Of a stretch of 64,000 bases of DNA, positions 57,298 to 64,000 are shown in pieces; position 1 is the first letter of the stretch; each line of letters opens with the position of its first letter. The notes beneath the pieces were generated by a model. It saw nothing but the letters and a program-made list of their open reading frames with translations. It searched no databases and had not been told where the DNA came from. Source of the stretch: Streptomyces sp. NBC_00569 (lineage in GTDB: Bacteria; Actinomycetota; Actinomycetes; Streptomycetales; Streptomycetaceae). The DNA lies in contig NZ_CP107783.1 in the NCBI RefSeq assembly GCF_036345255.1, forward strand, positions 7,114,001-7,178,000. Reading direction: 5' to 3'. The position numbers were made by a program, and so were the translations under genes.

Positions 57298-57320
57298 CTG
57301 AGCCTCACCACCCGTACGTC

Positions 57321-57359
57321 GACGGGGGCGCCGGATCGAATCGATCCGGCGCCCCCGTC
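57321..57359. terminator. Bidirectional terminator between lgt and the lyase gene
   Basis: Perfect 19-base arms (57321-57339 and 57341-57359; GACGGGGGCGCCGGATCGA and complement) lie between the convergent lgt and CitE-like genes and can serve both. Confidence 0.88.
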
Positions 57360-57371
57360 GCTCTGTCCCGG

Positions 57372-58208
57372 TCAGCCCCCGCGACGGTGTGACGCCAGCG
57401 CCAGGACCCGGCGCGCGTCCGACACGATCGCCGCGTCGACGAAGCGGCCGTCGGGCAGTGCCAGGGCCCCCGCCTCCGTGGCGGCGGCGCCGACGACCTC
57501 CGTCGCCGCGTCCACCTCCGCCGCCGTCGGCAGGAACGCCGCCTCGATGACGGGGAGCTGGCGGGGGTGGATCGCCATACGGCCGAAGAAGCCGAGCGCC
57601 CGGCCATGCGAACAGGAGCGGGCCAGGCCCACCGTGTCCCGGACATCCGGGTAGACGGACTGCGGCGGCGGGGGCAGCGCCGCGGCGCGCGCGGCGACGA
57701 CCGCCCGCCCGCGTGGCCACGCCAGCCCCTCGCCGTTCGCCACGCCGAGCTCCGCCCTCAGATCAGCCTCGCCCAGCGCGATGCCCCGTACGCCGGGATG
57801 TCGCGCGATCTCGAATGCCTGCTCGACGCCGAGCGCCGACTCGAGGAGGGCGTACAGGGGCGGCACCTCGACCGACCAGTCCGAGACACGGTCCAGGTCG
57901 GCGGGGCCGTGGACCTTGGGGAGGCGCAGGGCACCGAGGCCCGGGAGCGGGGTGAGCCGTCTGACCTCGGACTCGGCGCGCGGCGAGTCCAGCGCGTTGA
58001 CCCGCACATGCACCGGCACCGGGTGCTTCTCGGCGAGCAGCTCGGCCGTCGCGTCGAGGGCGTACGTCTTGCGGTCGGGGGCGACCGCGTCCTCCAGGTC
58101 GATCAGGACCACGTCGGCGCCCGAGTCGAGGGCCTTCGCCACCACCTCCGGGCGGTCGCCCGGGGCGTAGAGCCAGGTCAGGAACGTCTCGTAGGACTGG
58201 GCGGTCAC
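57372..58208 (-). CDS. HpcH/HpaI aldolase/citrate lyase-family (CitE-like) protein
   Basis: CitE-like lyases cleave or form C-C bonds in beta-hydroxyacyl-CoA substrates such as malyl- or citramalyl-CoA, using Mg2+. The 278-residue product has TWLYAPGDRPEVVAKALDSGADVVLIDLEDAVAP (read in parts: LYAPGDRPE and IDLEDAVAP), VRVNALDSP with the conserved Arg, LRLPKVHGPADLD, a metal-binding ALLESALGVEQA and GEADLRAELG, and GRMAIHPRQLPVIE. GTG 58208 overlaps the CoA-transferase stop by GTGA, so the pair is coupled and probably acts in one pathway. Confidence 0.88.
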   Translation of the reverse strand: MTAQSYETFLTWLYAPGDRPEVVAKALDSGADVVLIDLEDAVAPDRKTYALDATAELLAEKHPVPVHVRVNALDSPRAESEVRRLTPLPGLGALRLPKVHGPADLDRVSDWSVEVPPLYALLESALGVEQAFEIARHPGVRGIALGEADLRAELGVANGEGLAWPRGRAVVAARAAALPPPPQSVYPDVRDTVGLARSCSHGRALGFFGRMAIHPRQLPVIEAAFLPTAAEVDAATEVVGAAATEAGALALPDGRFVDAAIVSDARRVLALASHRRGG

Positions 58209-59461
58209 AGCGTGCCCGACTCGCGGAGGGTGGTGATCTCCGAGGGGGAAAGGCCGAGGCCCGTAAGGATCTCGTCCGTGTCGGCGCCGTGGGGGCGGCC
58301 GGCCCACTTGATCGCGCCGGGGGTCTCGGAGAGGCGGAACAGCACGTTCTGCATCCTGACCGTGCCCAGCTCGGGGTCGGGCACCTCGGTGATCGAGCCG
58401 AGCGCCTGGTACTGCTCGTTCTCCATCACGTCGCGGATGTCGAAGACGGGGGCGATGGCGGCCTCCGCCTTCTCGAAGGCCGCGAGGACGTCGTCCCGCG
58501 AGTGCCGGGCGATCCAGGAGCCGACCGCCGCGTCGAGTTCGTCGGCGTGGCCCGCGCGGCCCGACCCCGTCTCGAACCACGGCTCGTCGATCAGCTCGGG
58601 GCGGCCGACCAGGCGCATCACCCGCTCGGCGATCGACTGGGCGGACGTGGAGACCGCCACCCATTTGTTGTCGCTCGTGCGGTAGGTGTTGCGCGGCGCG
58701 TTGTTCGTGGACCGGTTCCCGGTGCGCGGCTGTACGTAGCCGAGCTGGTCGTACCAGATGGGCTGCGGGCCGAGGACCGTCAGCATCGGCTCGATGATCG
58801 CCATGTCGACGACCTGGCCCCGCCCCGTCCGCTCGCGGCCCTGGAGCGCGGCCATCACCGCGTACGACGTGGAGAGGGCGGCGATCGAGTCCGCGAGGCC
58901 GAACGGCGGGAGTGTCGGAGGGCCGTCGGGCTCGCCCGTGAGCGCCGCGAAGCCGCTCATCGCCTCGGCGAGCGTGCCGAATCCGGGGCGCGGCGAGTAC
59001 GGTCCGAACTGGCCGAAGGCGGTGACGCGGGTGAGCACCAGGCGCGGGTTGGCGGCGTTCAGCTCCTCCCAGCCGAGGTTCCACTTCTCCAGGGTGCCGG
59101 GACGGAAGTTCTCGATCAGTACGTCCGCGTCCGCGACCAGCTTGAGGAGGATCTCGCGCCCGCCGGGTGTGGAGAGATCGAGCGTGATGTTCCGCTTGTT
59201 GCGGCCGAGGAGCTTCCACCACAGGCCGACGCCGTCCTTCGACGGGCCGTGGCCTCGGGACGGGTCGGGTTTACGGGGATGCTCGACCTTGATCACGTCG
59301 GCGCCGAAGTCGCCCAGCATGGTCGCGGCGAGCGGGCCGGCGAAGAGGGTGGCCAGGTCGATGACGCGCAGGCCCTGCAACGGGGCGGGGTTTTGGGGGG
59401 CGTTGGGTGTGGGTGTGCCGGGCGTGCGGGTGGCGGTGTGCTGGTCGTGATCGGAGTTCAT
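58205..59461 (-). CDS. Family III CoA-transferase (CaiB/BaiF)
   Basis: Family III enzymes move CoA between organic acids through an aspartyl anhydride. The 418-residue product, after a 30-residue Thr/Pro-rich leader (TATRTPGTPTPNAPQNPAP), shows GLRVIDLATLFAGPLAATMLGDFGADVIKVEHP, shortened here to its blocks ATLFAGPLAA and GADVIKVE, then LGRNKRNITLDLST, ADVLIENFRPGTLEKW, and GFGTLAEAMSGFAALTG. The catalytic Asp is expected in VDMAIIEPML near residue 200. ATG 59461 overlaps the upstream ADP-ribosylglycohydrolase stop (ATGA). Together with the CitE-like lyase it could activate and cleave a dicarboxylic acid. Confidence 0.93.
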   Translation of the reverse strand: MNSDHDQHTATRTPGTPTPNAPQNPAPLQGLRVIDLATLFAGPLAATMLGDFGADVIKVEHPRKPDPSRGHGPSKDGVGLWWKLLGRNKRNITLDLSTPGGREILLKLVADADVLIENFRPGTLEKWNLGWEELNAANPRLVLTRVTAFGQFGPYSPRPGFGTLAEAMSGFAALTGEPDGPPTLPPFGLADSIAALSTSYAVMAALQGRERTGRGQVVDMAIIEPMLTVLGPQPIWYDQLGYVQPRTGNRSTNNAPRNTYRTSDNKWVAVSTSAQSIAERVMRLVGRPELIDEPWFETGSGRAGHADELDAAVGSWIARHSRDDVLAAFEKAEAAIAPVFDIRDVMENEQYQALGSITEVPDPELGTVRMQNVLFRLSETPGAIKWAGRPHGADTDEILTGLGLSPSEITTLRESGTL

Positions 59462-60978
59462 GTGCGGGCCTCCTGAGTGAGCCTGGCCAGTTCGTCGAAG
59501 CCGATCCCGTCGAAGTCGGCGACCGAGGTCGCCAGACGGTTCTTGAGCGGGGTGGTCCAGCGGTCGTCGATCGCGTCGGGGGAGCCGGCGAGAAGGCCGG
59601 TGATCGAACCGGCCGTCGCGCCGTTCGAGTCGGTGTCCCAGCCACCCGACACCGCACGGCAGATGGACCCCGTGAAGTCGCCGTCGGCGTGGGTGAGCGC
59701 GGCGGCGAGGAGCGCCGCGTTGGGCAGGACGTGCACCCAGTGGTGGTCGTGGGCATAGCGGGCGTGGAGTGTGTCGACCACGGATGCGAAGCCGGCCGGG
59801 GTGCCGGTGGGTTCGGCGCGCGCCGTCTCGATGCCGAAGCGGATTGCCTGGGCGTAGCGCGAGCCGGGTGGGATCACGGAGAGGCCGGCGTTGAGGGCGG
59901 TGTGGATGGTGGGGGCGGTGGGGATGGCGTCGATGGTGGGGGTGGGGTGGATGGTGGGGGTCGTGCGGGGTGGTGTCGCGGTGTGAGGCGTGGTGGCGGT
60001 GGGTACTGCCGTGCCGGTTGTCGTGGCGGTGGGTGCTGCCGCGTGGGCGATGGCTGCCGCTACGAACATCGCGCCGTACACGCCGTTCGCCGTGTGCGTC
60101 AACGTCGCGTCCGCGTGGGCCAGTTCGGCCGCCCGGGCGGGGTCGCCGGGGTTCGTCCAGCCGAAGACGTCCGCGCGGATCTGGGCGCCGACCCACTCCC
60201 GGAACGGGTTGCGGTGCACGGCCGTGTCCGGGGGCTCGATGCCCTCCAGGAGATTGCGGTACGCGATGCGCTCCGCGGTGAACGTGCGGCCCGCCGGCAA
60301 CTCGTCGAGCCACAGCCGCGCCACGTCCTCCGTGGTGAAGCCGGTGCCGTGGCGCCGGAGCAGGAGCAGGCCGAGGAGCGGGTAGTTGAGGTCGTCGTCC
60401 TCCGGCATCCCGTCGATGTTCTCGGCGAGGGAGGTGGGGCGGGATCGGCGGTTCCAGGGGTGGCGCTCCGCCACGTCCCGCGGGAGGCCCCGGTGCGTGA
60501 ACCATGTGTTCAGGGGCCAGTTGGACGTGGACCTCGCGATGGCCCGGATGCCGTGAAGGGGAAGTTTCTCCACGGGTTTGCCCAGGAGGCAGCCGACCGC
60601 TCTGCCCAGCCAGGACGCGTGCAGGCTCTGCGTCCCGGGGGCTTCTGTGGGCGCCGCCCCGAAGCCTTCGCGTTCCCTGTCCTCGAGCGACGGACGGACC
60701 GGTCGAGAGGTGAGCTGCTTGATCTCCGGCAAAGAGGTCGGTTCAAGTGCCCTCAGGGGGCTCTGTGTTGACGCCAGTTCGTCCAGGAGCGTGTTCGCCA
60801 GTGCGCGCAGCCTCGGGTCCTGGGCCGGCGGTGACGCTCCCGCGCGATCGGGGGGCGGGAGGCCGCCCGCCTCGTGCCAGCGGCGCTCCACGCCGCTCGC
60901 GTCCCGGCCGTCCTGTGCCGCCTGGCGCAGCTCGTGGCCGAGCAGGTCCTCGGGCTGGACCCAGGTGAGGCGCAGCAT
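59458..60978 (-). CDS. ADP-ribosylglycohydrolase-family protein with long N-terminal extension and low-complexity insert
   Basis: The 506-residue protein has an ARH/DraG-type helical domain from about residue 145 (SWLGRAVGCLLGKPVEKLP). The metal site is visible as MPEDDDLNY in the first half and GGWDTDSNGATAGSI in the second, with the Asp residues needed for two Mg2+. About 130 N-terminal residues precede the domain and lack a recognised fold. A Thr/Pro/Ala insert (about 315-365) interrupts the domain. ATG 60978 overlaps the upstream stop as TGATG; GTG 60981 is equally close. The family cleaves ADP-ribose or related N-glycosides; the substrate here is unknown. Confidence 0.85.
   Translation of the reverse strand: MLRLTWVQPEDLLGHELRQAAQDGRDASGVERRWHEAGGLPPPDRAGASPPAQDPRLRALANTLLDELASTQSPLRALEPTSLPEIKQLTSRPVRPSLEDREREGFGAAPTEAPGTQSLHASWLGRAVGCLLGKPVEKLPLHGIRAIARSTSNWPLNTWFTHRGLPRDVAERHPWNRRSRPTSLAENIDGMPEDDDLNYPLLGLLLLRRHGTGFTTEDVARLWLDELPAGRTFTAERIAYRNLLEGIEPPDTAVHRNPFREWVGAQIRADVFGWTNPGDPARAAELAHADATLTHTANGVYGAMFVAAAIAHAAAPTATTTGTAVPTATTPHTATPPRTTPTIHPTPTIDAIPTAPTIHTALNAGLSVIPPGSRYAQAIRFGIETARAEPTGTPAGFASVVDTLHARYAHDHHWVHVLPNAALLAAALTHADGDFTGSICRAVSGGWDTDSNGATAGSITGLLAGSPDAIDDRWTTPLKNRLATSVADFDGIGFDELARLTQEART
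59900..60045. repeat. G-rich low-complexity tract inside an ADP-ribosylglycohydrolase gene
   Basis: On the + strand there are repeated GGTGGGGGCGGTGGGGATGG-like runs with at least six G4-G5 blocks. On the coding (minus) strand this encodes TATTTGTAVPTATTPHTA and PPRTTPTIHPTPTID-type sequence. It can form G-quadruplexes on the template strand and is likely a variable-length tract. Confidence 0.75.
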
Positions 60979-62195
60979 CACGACCCCGCGGTCGCGGTGA
61001 GTTCGGCGAACGCCGCCTCGTGGGAGCGGCGGCGGGTCATGTCCTTGGCGAAGACCTCGCGCGTGACCCGGGCCAGTGAGGCCGCCGGTGTGTGCAGGTC
61101 GAGTCTGCTCGCGCGGGCCACCTCCCCGCTCCACTCCCGCGGCACCGCCGACTCCCCGTACAGCGCACCCACGATCGCACCGCTCATCGTCGCGATCGAG
61201 TCGCAGTCACGGCCGTAGTTGACCGAGCCGAGGACCGTCTGCCGGAAGTCGCCTCGGCCGACCAGGAGCATCCCGAGCGCGATCGGCAGCTCCTCGATCG
61301 CGTGCAGCCGGGACGGGCGGCGGGCCCCGAGTGAGGGCTTGCGGTACTCGGGGCCGACCGTGTCGAACGGCGCCACCGCCTCCCGCAGCGGTCCCAGCGC
61401 GTCCTCGAAGTCCGTGTGGTCACGCGCCACTTCGCACACCGCTTCGATCGCCGACCTCGTGCCGTCCTTCGCGAGAGCCAGCGCCTCCTCGACCACCGAC
61501 TCCGGCGTCGCGTCCGGCCCGAACGCCGCGGCGACGGCGGCCGCGAAGACGCCCGCCGCCTCCCTGCCGTACGACGACTGGTGCGCGCCCGCGACGTCCA
61601 GCGCCTCCTCGTACGCCCTGCCGGGGTTGCCCGCGTTCACCGCTCCGACCGGAGCCATGTACATCGCCGCGCCGCAGTTGACGATGTTGCCCACGCCCGC
61701 CTCGCGCGGGTCCACATGGCCGTAGTGAATGCGCGCCACGATCCACTTCTCGGCCAGGAAGATCCGCTGGAGGGGGAGCGCCTCCGCCTCCAGCTCCGGG
61801 ATCCAGCGGGTGTTGGTGATCAGGTCGGGGACGAGGTGGTCCGCGACCGCGTACGCGTCCAGGTGGTCCCGTACGTTCTCGTAGACCCTGATCAGCGCGT
61901 GCGTCATCAAGGTGTCGTCGGTGACGTGACCGTCGCCCTTGTGGTACGGGGCGATCGGGCGGGCCGTACGCCAGGCGTCCTTGTGGAACGGCTCCACGAT
62001 GCCGCGGACCCGGCCGCCGTGGCGCTCCGCGATCGCCTCCGGCGTCCAGCCCTCCACCGGGCCGCCGAGCGCGTCGCCCACCGCGGCGCCGAGCAGCGCT
62101 CCGGTGGTGCGGTCCTCCAGGGAACGGGGGGTGAAGGGCGGAGTCGGGGTTCGCTTCGGGGTGGGTGCGGGTGTGGCCGTTGTGGGGGTGGTCAT
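60978..62195 (-). CDS. ADP-ribosylglycohydrolase-family protein
   Basis: The 405-residue protein has the complete ARH/DraG signature: RTTGALLGAAVGDALGGPVEGW at the start, the first metal site GHVTDDTLMTHALIRVYENV (T-D-D), and the second NYGRDCDSIATMSGAIVGALYG (D-x-D-S). A Thr/Pro leader of 25 residues (TTPTTATPAPTPKRTPTPP) precedes the domain. Family members remove ADP-ribose from proteins or nucleic acids, or hydrolyse ADP-ribosyl or other N-glycosides. It overlaps both neighbours as TGATG and is the best candidate for an active enzyme in the cluster. Confidence 0.92.
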   Translation of the reverse strand: MTTPTTATPAPTPKRTPTPPFTPRSLEDRTTGALLGAAVGDALGGPVEGWTPEAIAERHGGRVRGIVEPFHKDAWRTARPIAPYHKGDGHVTDDTLMTHALIRVYENVRDHLDAYAVADHLVPDLITNTRWIPELEAEALPLQRIFLAEKWIVARIHYGHVDPREAGVGNIVNCGAAMYMAPVGAVNAGNPGRAYEEALDVAGAHQSSYGREAAGVFAAAVAAAFGPDATPESVVEEALALAKDGTRSAIEAVCEVARDHTDFEDALGPLREAVAPFDTVGPEYRKPSLGARRPSRLHAIEELPIALGMLLVGRGDFRQTVLGSVNYGRDCDSIATMSGAIVGALYGESAVPREWSGEVARASRLDLHTPAASLARVTREVFAKDMTRRRSHEAAFAELTATAGS

Positions 62196-63394
62196 CAGAG
62201 GCCTTTCGGTGTGGTTGCTGCCCTGGTCAGGTTTGCCGCGACGGCCACGAGGTCCGTTCCCGCCAGGCGTGGCAGTGCGCAGCCCGCGAGCCTGCGGCAG
62301 GCGTCCCGCCAGCTCGCCGGGAGCGTGTCGGCCCCGCCGATCGCTCCGGTCAGCGCGCCCGCCAGCGCCGGGGCCGAGTCCGCCACCCGCGAGAGGCACG
62401 CCGCCGTGGGCAGCGCCTCCGTCACGTCGCCGCCGGCCGCGGTCGCCACGGCCAGGGCCACCGGGACCGTTTCCGCCGCCGCGATGCCGTAGCTGTAGAC
62501 GTGGTCGACGATCTCGTGCTCCAGAACCGGGACCAGTGCGAACGCGTTTCCCGGCAGGCCGGGGCGGGCCGCGGTCGCCCTTCGCGCCAGGTCCACCGCG
62601 TGCAGTGCGTTGCGGCGGATCTCGGTTCCCTCGGGGAGCTGGGCCAGCGCGGCGTCCACGCAGGCATCCACCGGTGCGCCGCCCAGCGCTGTCGCCACGG
62701 CCGCCGCCATGGCTCTGGCGCCGTGCACACCGTCGCCGTCCTGGGTGTACCGGGCGTCGAACTCCGCGAGTTCCGCGGCGAGTTCGGGGGCACCGGGGTG
62801 GACCACGGCCAGTACGGCCGCGCGTACGCAGGCCGCGTCGTCGAAGTAGTGCGGGTTGTCGTGTCCCGTGGCCGGAGGGCTCAGGCCCGCCGCCAGGTTG
62901 CCCAGGCCCGCTCTTACGGAGATGCGGGCCCGCATCGGCATGCGCGCCGACTCGATCTCGTCCGCACGGGCCGTTGCCTCGGCCACCTCGGCGGCGAGGG
63001 TGTTCCAGGCGAGCGCGAGTGCCTTGCGTACCTGGTCGTCCGGGGGGAGGTTCGTGCTCTGGGCTCTCGCGCCGGTGGCGTTCAGGATCGAGGCCGCCGT
63101 GAACGCCGCCCATTCCGCGTCGTCCGACGGGCCCAGGCGGAGGGGTTCCGGGGGCTGGTTGAGCGCGATCGGTACGGGGAGCGTCGTCGTCGCGTTCTGC
63201 TCCGCGAACGTGTCCAGTTCTCGGGTCAGGCGGCGGGTCCAGTCGGGGAGGCGGGCTGCGCGGTGTCGGCCTGAGGGCCAGCCTGCGGCGTCGCCTGCGG
63301 CGATGCCGAGCAGCAGGCCCTCGATTCGGCGGGGGGTGGTGGGGGTTGCCGTGGCGCGGGGTTTCGTTTCGGGTGTGACCGTGGGGGGCGTCAT
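62195..63394 (-). CDS. Divergent ADP-ribosylglycohydrolase paralogue with altered metal site
   Basis: The 399-residue protein keeps the family start RIEGLLLGIAAGDAAGWPSG and a first-site PSDDAEWAAF, but the second site reads LSRVADSAPALAGALTGAIGG where active paralogues have G-R-D-x-D-S/T; the first Asp is Val here. One Mg2+ ligand is therefore missing, so catalysis may be lost or changed. The Thr/Pro leader is TPPTVTPETKPRATATPTTP. ATG 63394 overlaps the stop of a 130-codon frame upstream, and its stop overlaps the next paralogue's ATG. Confidence 0.85.
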   Translation of the reverse strand: MTPPTVTPETKPRATATPTTPRRIEGLLLGIAAGDAAGWPSGRHRAARLPDWTRRLTRELDTFAEQNATTTLPVPIALNQPPEPLRLGPSDDAEWAAFTAASILNATGARAQSTNLPPDDQVRKALALAWNTLAAEVAEATARADEIESARMPMRARISVRAGLGNLAAGLSPPATGHDNPHYFDDAACVRAAVLAVVHPGAPELAAELAEFDARYTQDGDGVHGARAMAAAVATALGGAPVDACVDAALAQLPEGTEIRRNALHAVDLARRATAARPGLPGNAFALVPVLEHEIVDHVYSYGIAAAETVPVALAVATAAGGDVTEALPTAACLSRVADSAPALAGALTGAIGGADTLPASWRDACRRLAGCALPRLAGTDLVAVAANLTRAATTPKGL

Positions 63395-63783
63395 GGGGTG
63401 CGGGCCTCTCCGGTGCGGGTGCTCCTTGGCGGGTGTGGGTGCGGGTGCGGGTGCGGGGGCCGGGCGGTCCTTGGTGGGTGTGGGCTTGTGCTCGGCTTGT
63501 GGCTCGCGTTTGTTGTGGGTGCGGGGCCGGTCCGGTATGTCCGTCCTCGCTTGGATGGTTCGGCGTTGGATTTCGTGGGCGTCAGTTGTGTGTGCCGGCT
63601 CCGGGCGGACATACCGGCCCGGCCCCTTCTGTTCGGTCGCGGGTGCGGCAGGGGTGGTTGCTGGTGTGCTGGGTGTGTCGGCTTCGGGTGGGGATCGGTT
63701 TGGCTCTTTCTGTTCGGTCGCGGGTGCGGCTGGATTGGGGGTGGGGGCCTCAGCCTGTGTACGTGGGTGGGTGCGGGAGTCAC
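63391..63783 (-). CDS. Uncertain His/Pro-rich frame coupled to the ADP-ribosylglycohydrolase genes
   Basis: This 130-codon frame begins at a GTG that overlaps the upstream stop (GTGA) and ends in a TGA that overlaps the downstream ATG (ATGA), so it fills the gap exactly as a coupled gene would. The product is Pro/His/Arg/Thr-rich (PHPRPNRKSQTDPHPKPTHP, HPHPHPHPP) without a recognisable domain. Its middle (SKRGRTYRTGPAPTT) is encoded by the inverted repeat also found at 32.3 kb. It may be a real low-complexity protein, or a repeat insertion that happens to stay open. Confidence is low. Confidence 0.35.
   Translation of the reverse strand: MTPAPTHVHRLRPPPPIQPHPRPNRKSQTDPHPKPTHPAHQQPPLPHPRPNRRGRAGMSARSRHTQLTPTKSNAEPSKRGRTYRTGPAPTTNASHKPSTSPHPPRTARPPHPHPHPHPPRSTRTGEARTP
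63455..63740. repeat. Copy B of the inverted-repeat element
   Basis: The 22-base arms at 63525-63546 and 63603-63624 (core GGTATGTCCG, two mismatches) and the 56-base loop match copy A at 32310-32409 without any insertion or deletion. About 1.5 of the 81-base units follow. Differences are mainly single-base changes. Confidence 0.88.
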
Positions 63784-64000
63784 GGTGTGGTCCCCGCCGG
63801 GGGGTCGGGGTGTAGCGGAGGTTTGGGGGTCAAGGTGTTGGCGATGTCCAGGATGTGACGGCCTGTCATTGACGGGAGGCAGTTGCCTCGGACCGGGCCG
63901 ATCGTCGTCGCCCAGTCGGCGGGGATCGCGCGTTCGCCGCGTAGCGCGCCGGCCAGGGCACCGGCCACCGCGGCCGTCGTGTCCGCGTCGCGGCCCATGT
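63780..64000 (-). CDS. ADP-ribosylglycohydrolase-family protein, 5' end outside the window
   Basis: Only the last ~73 codons are present. They hold the family's second metal-binding motif, MGRDADTTAAVAGALAGALRG, with both Asp residues, then AIPADWATTI and a C-terminal helix GRHILDIANTL followed by a Pro-rich tail (TPKPPLHPDPPAGTTP). This is a fourth paralogue in the same orientation; the methionine at the edge is internal, not a start. Confidence 0.85.
   Translation of the reverse strand, partial: MGRDADTTAAVAGALAGALRGERAIPADWATTIGPVRGNCLPSMTGRHILDIANTLTPKPPLHPDPPAGTTP

Follow-up and report, generated by a model that had tools for sequence, protein, structure and literature searches.

What brings several ADP-ribosylglycohydrolase (ARH) paralogues together with a coenzyme A (CoA) transferase and a CitE-like lyase at one bacterial locus? 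In Streptomyces sp. NBC_00569, such genes lie on the minus strand at the end of a stretch of 64,000 nucleotides (the window, G000:C1:7114001-7178000 of the source genome G000, 10.3 Mb in a single contig). An earlier note on this sequence saw four ARH/DraG-family genes, one of them partial, followed by a family III CoA-transferase and a CitE/HpcH lyase, and proposed a single pathway. The ARH-CaiB-CitE set is a conserved Streptomyces unit. With moderate confidence, the genes are read here as the remaining part of a LacI-controlled operon that would import and catabolise a small ribose-containing compound with an acid half.

A conserved gene unit in Streptomyces

Gene content, synteny and co-occurrence are observed directly, as are the single operator and the conserved motifs described further below. 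In an order-level sample of 147 genomes, this one included, a CitE orthologue (at least 61% identity; G070 at 44% and G049 at 40% were set aside) is present in 100 and ARH-B in 97. The scans for these two genes, ARH-C, CaiB, ribokinase, LacI and the importer scored limited candidates per genome, and absences in them are not proof. Both genes occur together in 97 genomes, CitE without ARH-B in three, ARH-B without CitE in none, and neither in 47, the reverse of the pattern (ARH genes conserved without the CoA pair) that the earlier note had named as speaking against one pathway. ARH-B and CitE share contig and strand in 95 of the 97, separated by 3.0-5.5 kb, and are on different contigs in the remaining two. 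Two of the CitE-only loci (L144, L145) are on short contigs that end there, and the third (L141) has no ARH gene and just a piece of CaiB. ARH-B is confined to one of the five genera sampled, and no ARH-C relative outside the genus was found at E 1e-55 among 396 phylum-level genomes, in a scan that scored a few top candidates from each.

A scan of named genomes through the ARH-B alignment gives the same picture. Of 366 confirmed stretches, ordered by their similarity to this ARH-B, the best 80 were kept as named loci; they contain ARH-B by construction, and 75 of them extend far enough for CaiB and CitE to be counted. CaiB and CitE are present in 75/75 and ARH-C and ARH-D in 74/75. All 80 relatives are titled Streptomyces, save ‘Actinobacteria bacterium OK074’ and ‘[Kitasatospora] papulosa’. 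The operon is also found away from the gltB/lgt site that it occupies here: in 12 loci inspected (11 with an importer), no open reading frame (ORF) outside the operon recurs in more than two, and two pairs share flanks. Two side observations concern copy number and decay. S. scopuliridis RB72 carries two operon regions on different contigs, with an importer in one (L166) and none in the other (L209). The operon is decaying in L131, L132, L140 and L141, where internal deletions leave pieces of ARH, CaiB or CitE genes and the ribokinase is kept.

Read beyond the window end, the minus-strand order is LacI, ARH-A, ARH-B, ARH-C, ARH-D, CaiB, CitE. Pfam assigns all seven genes to families (Table 1), bearing out the composition first described (PF03747, PF02515 and PF03328); the fourth ARH gene looked partial through the window end and is complete in the genome. 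ARH-B and ARH-C overlap by 1 base, and ARH-C/ARH-D, ARH-D/CaiB and CaiB/CitE by 4 bases each. Of the chain of 1-4 base overlaps that had been described from 63783 to 58205, these four junctions from ARH-B to CitE hold, and the two upstream ones run through a doubtful ORF. This ORF is probably chance sequence and is not counted as a gene, because Pfam gives no match and the interval is not conserved: the aligned stretches of ARH-A and ARH-B overlap slightly in some relatives and lie as much as about 1.4 kb apart in others.

The flanks are genes that we take to be gltB/gltD on one side and lgt-trpA on the other. The lgt and CitE genes converge, and the space between them has a perfect hairpin; a 67-base stretch containing it folds at -48.6 kcal/mol (z -5.8), with 0 of 200 shuffles equally low. 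No T-tailed terminator was found; the hairpin has no T-run and is possibly a bidirectional terminator.

Table 1. Features of the operon and its surroundings, in window coordinates.
Feature	Position	Strand	Family match or remark
19-bp perfect hairpin	57320..57360		between convergent lgt and CitE
CitE/HpcH-type CoA-ester lyase, 278 aa	57372..58208	-	PF03328, 100.9 bits
CaiB-like family III CoA-transferase, 418 aa	58205..59461	-	PF02515, 412.4 bits
ARH-D, 507 aa	59458..60981	-	PF03747, 157.6 bits, residues 122-467; extra N-terminal region of ~115 aa
ARH-C, 405 aa	60978..62195	-	PF03747, 186.8 bits
ARH-B, 399 aa	62195..63394	-	PF03747, 130.7 bits
ORF, low-complexity, Pro/His/Arg-rich, 130 aa; probably chance sequence	63391..63783	-	no Pfam match
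ARH-A, 3' part in window	63780..64000	-	whole gene 63780-64889; PF03747, 199.5 bits
LacI-family gene, beyond window	64924-65979	-	Pfam; upstream of ARH-A
LacI operator, beyond window	65986-65999		just before LacI

Ribokinase, importer and LacI in the operons of relatives

The fullest unit in relatives reads LacI-permease 1-permease 2-binding protein-ARH-A-B-C-D-RbsK-CaiB-CitE. Past position 64,000, where kinase, transporter or regulator genes had been suggested to be worth seeking, a LacI gene does lie, and ribokinase and importer genes occur only at the operons of relatives. A ribokinase-like gene stands between ARH-D and CaiB in 58 of the 75 named loci, and the sole copy run on NCBIfam (L052) passes the TIGR02152 equivalog, at 305.7 against 299.65. 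An orthologue (at least 68% identity) is present in 73 of the 147 genomes, including 64 of the 100 with CitE; wherever ribokinase, ARH-B and CitE occur together (62 genomes), the ribokinase is found 1.2-1.6 kb upstream of CitE without exception. This genome has no such orthologue, its best match being 42% identical (G000:6339541). Of nine genomes that keep the ribokinase without CitE, operon remnants adjoin it in L131 and L132, and it follows importer genes in L136. A bacillithiol-like GlcN-malate was considered as the substrate and rejected on the identity of the kinase as a ribokinase.

The importer consists, by Pfam, of a binding protein (SBP_bac_1) and two permeases (BPD_transp_1), a CUT1-type sugar ATP-binding cassette (ABC) importer. 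These three genes lie directly upstream of ARH-A in 23 of the 80 named loci, matches under 45% identity being ignored, and overlaps of 1 and 4 bases are seen in L151. Eleven of the 23 are at the gltB/lgt site, and three of the other 12 are on short contigs. One genome (G175) holds importer and ribokinase only. The PDB relatives of the binding protein are broad sugar binders and point to no ligand.

A relative of the binding protein encoded apart from the operon occurs in 76 of the 100 CitE genomes and in 3 of the 47 without CitE (3/32 within the genus), counts that include no correction for common descent. In this genome it belongs to a stand-alone importer at G000:C1:2983712-2986763 (L153:8713-11764), a candidate importer for the operon in this strain. 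Both permeases are there in the same order, and the three genes share 60%, 66% and 71% identity with those that relatives carry in the operon. Five stand-alone importer loci, viewed by eye with their genes not run against families, show no obvious catabolic set.

The LacI gene brings its own operator. In 23 of 23 LacI loci, the 260 bp ahead of LacI contain the word TGTAAACGTTTCCA (either orientation, up to 2 mismatches allowed); the best match is exact in 11, has one mismatch in 11 and two in 1. In the 80 named loci (1.57 Mb), 36 such words occur, all in LacI upstream stretches. Allowing up to 1 mismatch, the whole genome of this strain has a single copy of the word, immediately ahead of LacI, and no copy of the reversed control. 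Because the operator is confined to the stretch upstream of LacI, the protein is probably a local, single-target regulator. Its best NCBIfam matches are ribose repressors, under the cut-off. As a side observation, with 36 words for 23 LacI stretches (among L158-L237), some loci apparently have more than one site.

Four diverged ARH-fold proteins

All four ARH proteins exceed the PF03747 (ADP_ribosyl_GH) cut-off of 26.2 bits, with 130.7-199.5 bits, and none reaches the DraG or Tri1 cut-off. Against the DraG equivalog TIGR02662 (cut-off 337), ARH-A scores 74.2 and ARH-C 51.8; against the Tri1 equivalog NF041672 (cut-off 490), ARH-A scores 59.4 and ARH-C 54.1; ARH-B and ARH-D are unmatched in both. 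Motifs were read from alignments of 20-21 rows each, excluding truncated copies (ARH-C and ARH-D of L140, ARH-D of L053). ARH-A has TDDTEY and GRDADT (the latter in 21/21 rows), ARH-C has TDDTLMT and GRDCDS (20/20), and ARH-D has PEDDDL (20/20) and GGWDTDS (18/20, with GGLDTDS in the remaining 2/20). ARH-B has SDDAEW, with SDDADW in 1/21, and SRVADS in 21/21. TDDTEY of ARH-A and TDDTLMT of ARH-C do not vary either.

In HMMER alignments, GRDADTT of ARH-A falls on GGDADTT of DraG and SRVADS of ARH-B on GGDTDT of ARH3. In DraG and ARH3 a Gly precedes the first Asp of GGDxD[ST]; ARH-A, ARH-B and ARH-C have Arg in its place and ARH-D has Trp or Leu. In other ARHs of the same genome, a Gly precedes the motif Asp in 4 of 6 readable cases (GGDSDT, GGDMDT and SGDSDS twice). 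The metal-motif Asp residues are retained in ARH-A, ARH-C and ARH-D, and the first Asp of GGDxD[ST] is gone in ARH-B. The first loop holds a Glu in ARH-A, ARH-C and ARH-D and none in ARH-B. That this Glu matters in ARH3 is suggested by structure-entry titles that name E41A. ARH-B therefore fits the idea, voiced in the earlier note for a possible hetero-oligomer, that one of the proteins is degenerate. It is under strong constraint despite its degenerate second metal motif, because its relatives are 74-83% identical, with long invariant stretches and an invariant SRVADS across 27 rows.

The AlphaFold model of ARH-B has a mean pLDDT (predicted local distance difference test) of 73, with residues 59-89 and 145-181 below 50 and the SRVADS block averaging 68. 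That of ARH-D has a pLDDT of 76 and matches DraG (2woc) and ARH3 (6g1q) in Foldseek; no solved relative of ARH-D was found by sequence. All confident matches of both models are ARH-fold chains, among them one ARH-like chain from the FtsHi motor of chloroplasts, and the models argue for the ARH fold only. In this strain, residues 323-354 of ARH-D (window 59920-60015) form a Thr/Pro-rich, low-complexity insert with pLDDT below 50, and matches to relatives stop on each side of it.

In the relative S. violaceoruber NRRL S-981 (L218), the order is gltB-VIT-ARH-A-B-C-D-CaiB-CitE-lgt; on gene order and this locus, the four operon ARHs are very probably the four consecutive ARHs SCO2028-SCO2031 of S. 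coelicolor, in which gltB is presumably SCO2026 and lgt SCO2034. The excerpts of two publications list SCO2028-2030 (PMC5087735) and SCO2028-2031 (PMC9411070) among uncharacterised DraG/ARH homologues, as putative ADP-ribosyl hydrolases, and according to the latter S. coelicolor has eight DraG/ARH homologues, hydrolases far outnumbering transferases. A third reports no action of SCO2028 and SCO2030 on U-alpha-ADP-ribose (PMC13036486). In the excerpts of all three, the label is putative ADP-ribosyl hydrolase and the operon, CaiB and CitE are unmentioned (PMC5087735, PMC9411070, PMC13036486).

The ARH proteins could strip ADP-ribose from proteins or nucleic acids, the CoA pair being an unrelated passenger. 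The published label, the membership of all four in PF03747 and the DDT and DxD[ST] motifs kept in ARH-A and ARH-C speak for this. It is nevertheless unlikely, given the near-perfect co-retention and synteny with CitE and CaiB, the ribokinase and, in some relatives, the importer in the same operon, the operator limited to LacI, the distance of ARH-A from the DraG and Tri1 cut-offs and the inactivity of SCO2028 and SCO2030. Riboside catabolism is preferred over reversal of ADP-ribosylation because of the gene content of the operon (ribokinase, importer, CoA arm), in line with the earlier suggestion of a small-molecule glycoside rather than ADP-ribosylated protein. It is further supported by the inactive S. 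coelicolor proteins, by the absence from all four ARHs of the Gly that precedes the first GGDxD[ST] Asp, by the stand-alone binding-protein relative that tracks CitE genomes, and by a second cluster in this genome.

This cluster (L149:6782-11000, G000:C1:2166781-2170999) reads GntR-ARH-PF02133 permease-PfkB. Its ARH lies beside a cytosine/purine-family permease and a PfkB kinase, a plan like that of E. coli yegTUV; unlike the operon, it has a single ARH with a canonical GGDSDT and no CoA genes. E. coli yegTUV with YegW/GgaR is the nearest described unit, combining a regulator, a transporter, an ARH (YegU) and a sugar kinase (YegV) under a single-target repressor; the excerpt gives the functions of the three genes as unknown and links them to ADP-glucose and glycogen (PMC10819704). 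It has a GntR regulator, a nucleoside-type major facilitator superfamily (MFS) symporter, one ARH and no CoA genes (PMC10819704), whereas the Streptomyces operon has LacI, an ABC importer, four ARHs and a CoA-transferase with a lyase. The yegTUV-like plan of ARH, PfkB kinase and transporter with a local regulator occurs in relatives L151, L152 and L163. No description of an operon of ARH with CoA-transferase and lyase was found in open-licence PubMed Central literature, where the ARHs appear as uncharacterised homologues; this agrees with the view of the earlier note that no pathway of this composition had been described.

A proposed riboside pathway and its alternatives

In the proposed sequence of steps, a CUT1-type ABC importer, operon-borne in some relatives and probably encoded elsewhere here, would take in a ribofuranoside with an N- or O-linkage to a second half that is a carboxylic acid or gives rise to one. 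The ribosyl bond would be cleaved by the ARHs, with ARH-A, ARH-C and ARH-D acting as metal-dependent hydrolases and ARH-B being either an altered enzyme or a conserved partner. The freed ribose would be converted to ribose 5-phosphate by a ribokinase, whose operon gene is absent here; a ribokinase-like gene is present elsewhere in this genome. CaiB would put CoA on the freed acid, and CitE would split the CoA ester into acetyl-CoA and a 2-oxo acid. That this is a new pathway, in which three to four diverged ARH-fold proteins, one catalytically altered, jointly act as a glycosidase on an imported ribosyl-hydroxyacid, is put forward tentatively.

The CaiB and CitE steps are modelled on the roles of these families in itaconate and citramalate routes, as excerpted (PMC12290011, PMC6689899). 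In itaconate degradation (Ict, Ich, Ccl/RipC), a CoA-transferase and a CitE-type lyase likewise form a pair, there acting on a C5 dicarboxylate (PMC12290011); the operon differs in leaving no room for a hydratase, here and in L151, the rest of the genome not having been searched for one. The products expected of CitE, acetyl-CoA and a 2-oxo acid, make an acid like malate or citramalate the likeliest; from the CaiB and CitE families the acid is probably such a dicarboxylate, and the neighbourhoods of CaiB relatives help weakly. The nearest NCBIfam equivalog of CitE, RipC_Ccl, is not reached (138.7 bits against a cut-off of 375), the seven NCBIfam matches of CaiB are each under their cut-off, and the closest PDB chains of CitE are 9nzb and 8khl (acyl-CoA lyase beta chain).

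In a tree, the CaiB proteins of 24 Streptomyces operons all fall on one side of a 100/99 branch. The CaiB from this strain clusters with those of G128 and G131, which have the importer. Support for that grouping (89/86) is not strong; it fits a loss of importer and ribokinase in this strain with LacI retained. More distant CaiB relatives (53-68% identical) were inspected at 20 loci, many of which adjoin MmgE/PrpD genes and variously also carry CitE, PF04199 cyclase, amidohydrolase and flavin adenine dinucleotide (FAD)-dehydrogenase genes. At five loci (L057, L113, L114, L115, L129), CaiB relatives 66-68% identical and CitE relatives lie beside MmgE/PrpD, with PF04199 cyclase, amidohydrolase, FAD-dehydrogenase or MFS genes variously added. 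A small gene of L057 looks racemase-like by eye and matched no NCBIfam family. These five clusters are possibly a route for a substituted dicarboxylic acid or a cyclic imide. Examined for a clue to the substrate, the CaiB clusters from other classes point to some substituted dicarboxylic acid and name none in particular.

Such loci raise the possibility that a ribosylated compound is degraded while the CoA pair serves to detoxify or recycle an acid from elsewhere, with shared regulation as the only bond between the two. The ARH-free company of CaiB relatives (often MmgE/PrpD, cyclase, amidohydrolase or FAD genes) shows that the acid arm can stand alone. In Streptomyces, however, the two arms are almost never apart, as the 75/75 named loci attest, and they stay together at other sites too, making a separate acid arm also unlikely, to much the same degree as ADP-ribose removal. 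That the four proteins are metal hydrolases of another kind, for example amidases or esterases that attack the acid half, is very improbable: the lost ligand position of ARH-B and the Arg beside the metal motif in ARH-A, ARH-B and ARH-C mean that the chemistry may have changed, and ARH-D has no solved relative by sequence, but the operon ribokinase, a LacI nearest to ribose repressors (under cut-off) and the parallel ARH-PfkB cluster point to sugar release.

Several points weigh against the riboside pathway itself. It is built on genes, from which the substrate class, the order of steps and all enzyme activities are predicted; with CaiB and CitE under all NCBIfam cut-offs, the acid is guessed from family, and an ARH gene is present near CaiB relatives in none of the 20 inspected loci, 19 of which lie outside the order-level sample of operons from Streptomyces. 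The operon of this strain is without importer and ribokinase. The ribokinase orthologue is missing from 36 of the 100 CitE genomes, and nine genomes hold it though CitE is gone. The importer share of 23/80 is biased because the named loci were selected for similarity to this ARH-B; among the 100 CitE genomes of the evenly drawn sample, 2 (G128, G131) have the importer at the operon. The operon has no ABC ATPase gene; the importer could be served by a shared one such as MsiK. Allowing up to 1 mismatch, no operator is present at the stand-alone importer of this strain, and the tracking of CitE genomes by its binding protein may partly reflect the uncorrected ancestry. A LacI orthologue (E 1e-75) occurs in just 3 of the 147 genomes, so most strains must control the operon otherwise. 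Finally, the negative result for SCO2028 and SCO2030 covers one substrate only.

In conclusion, the operon would offer a better framed relative for units of the yegTUV type: its gene content names ribose and a CoA-ester-forming acid as products, so that the substrate can be sought through binding-protein and growth assays. If the riboside pathway is true, four of the eight DraG/ARH homologues of S. coelicolor would belong to carbon metabolism and not to signalling; with these four placed in a sugar-acid operon, the puzzle of the excess of hydrolases would shrink, and the ARH superfamily would gain a metabolic role outside ADP-ribosylation.

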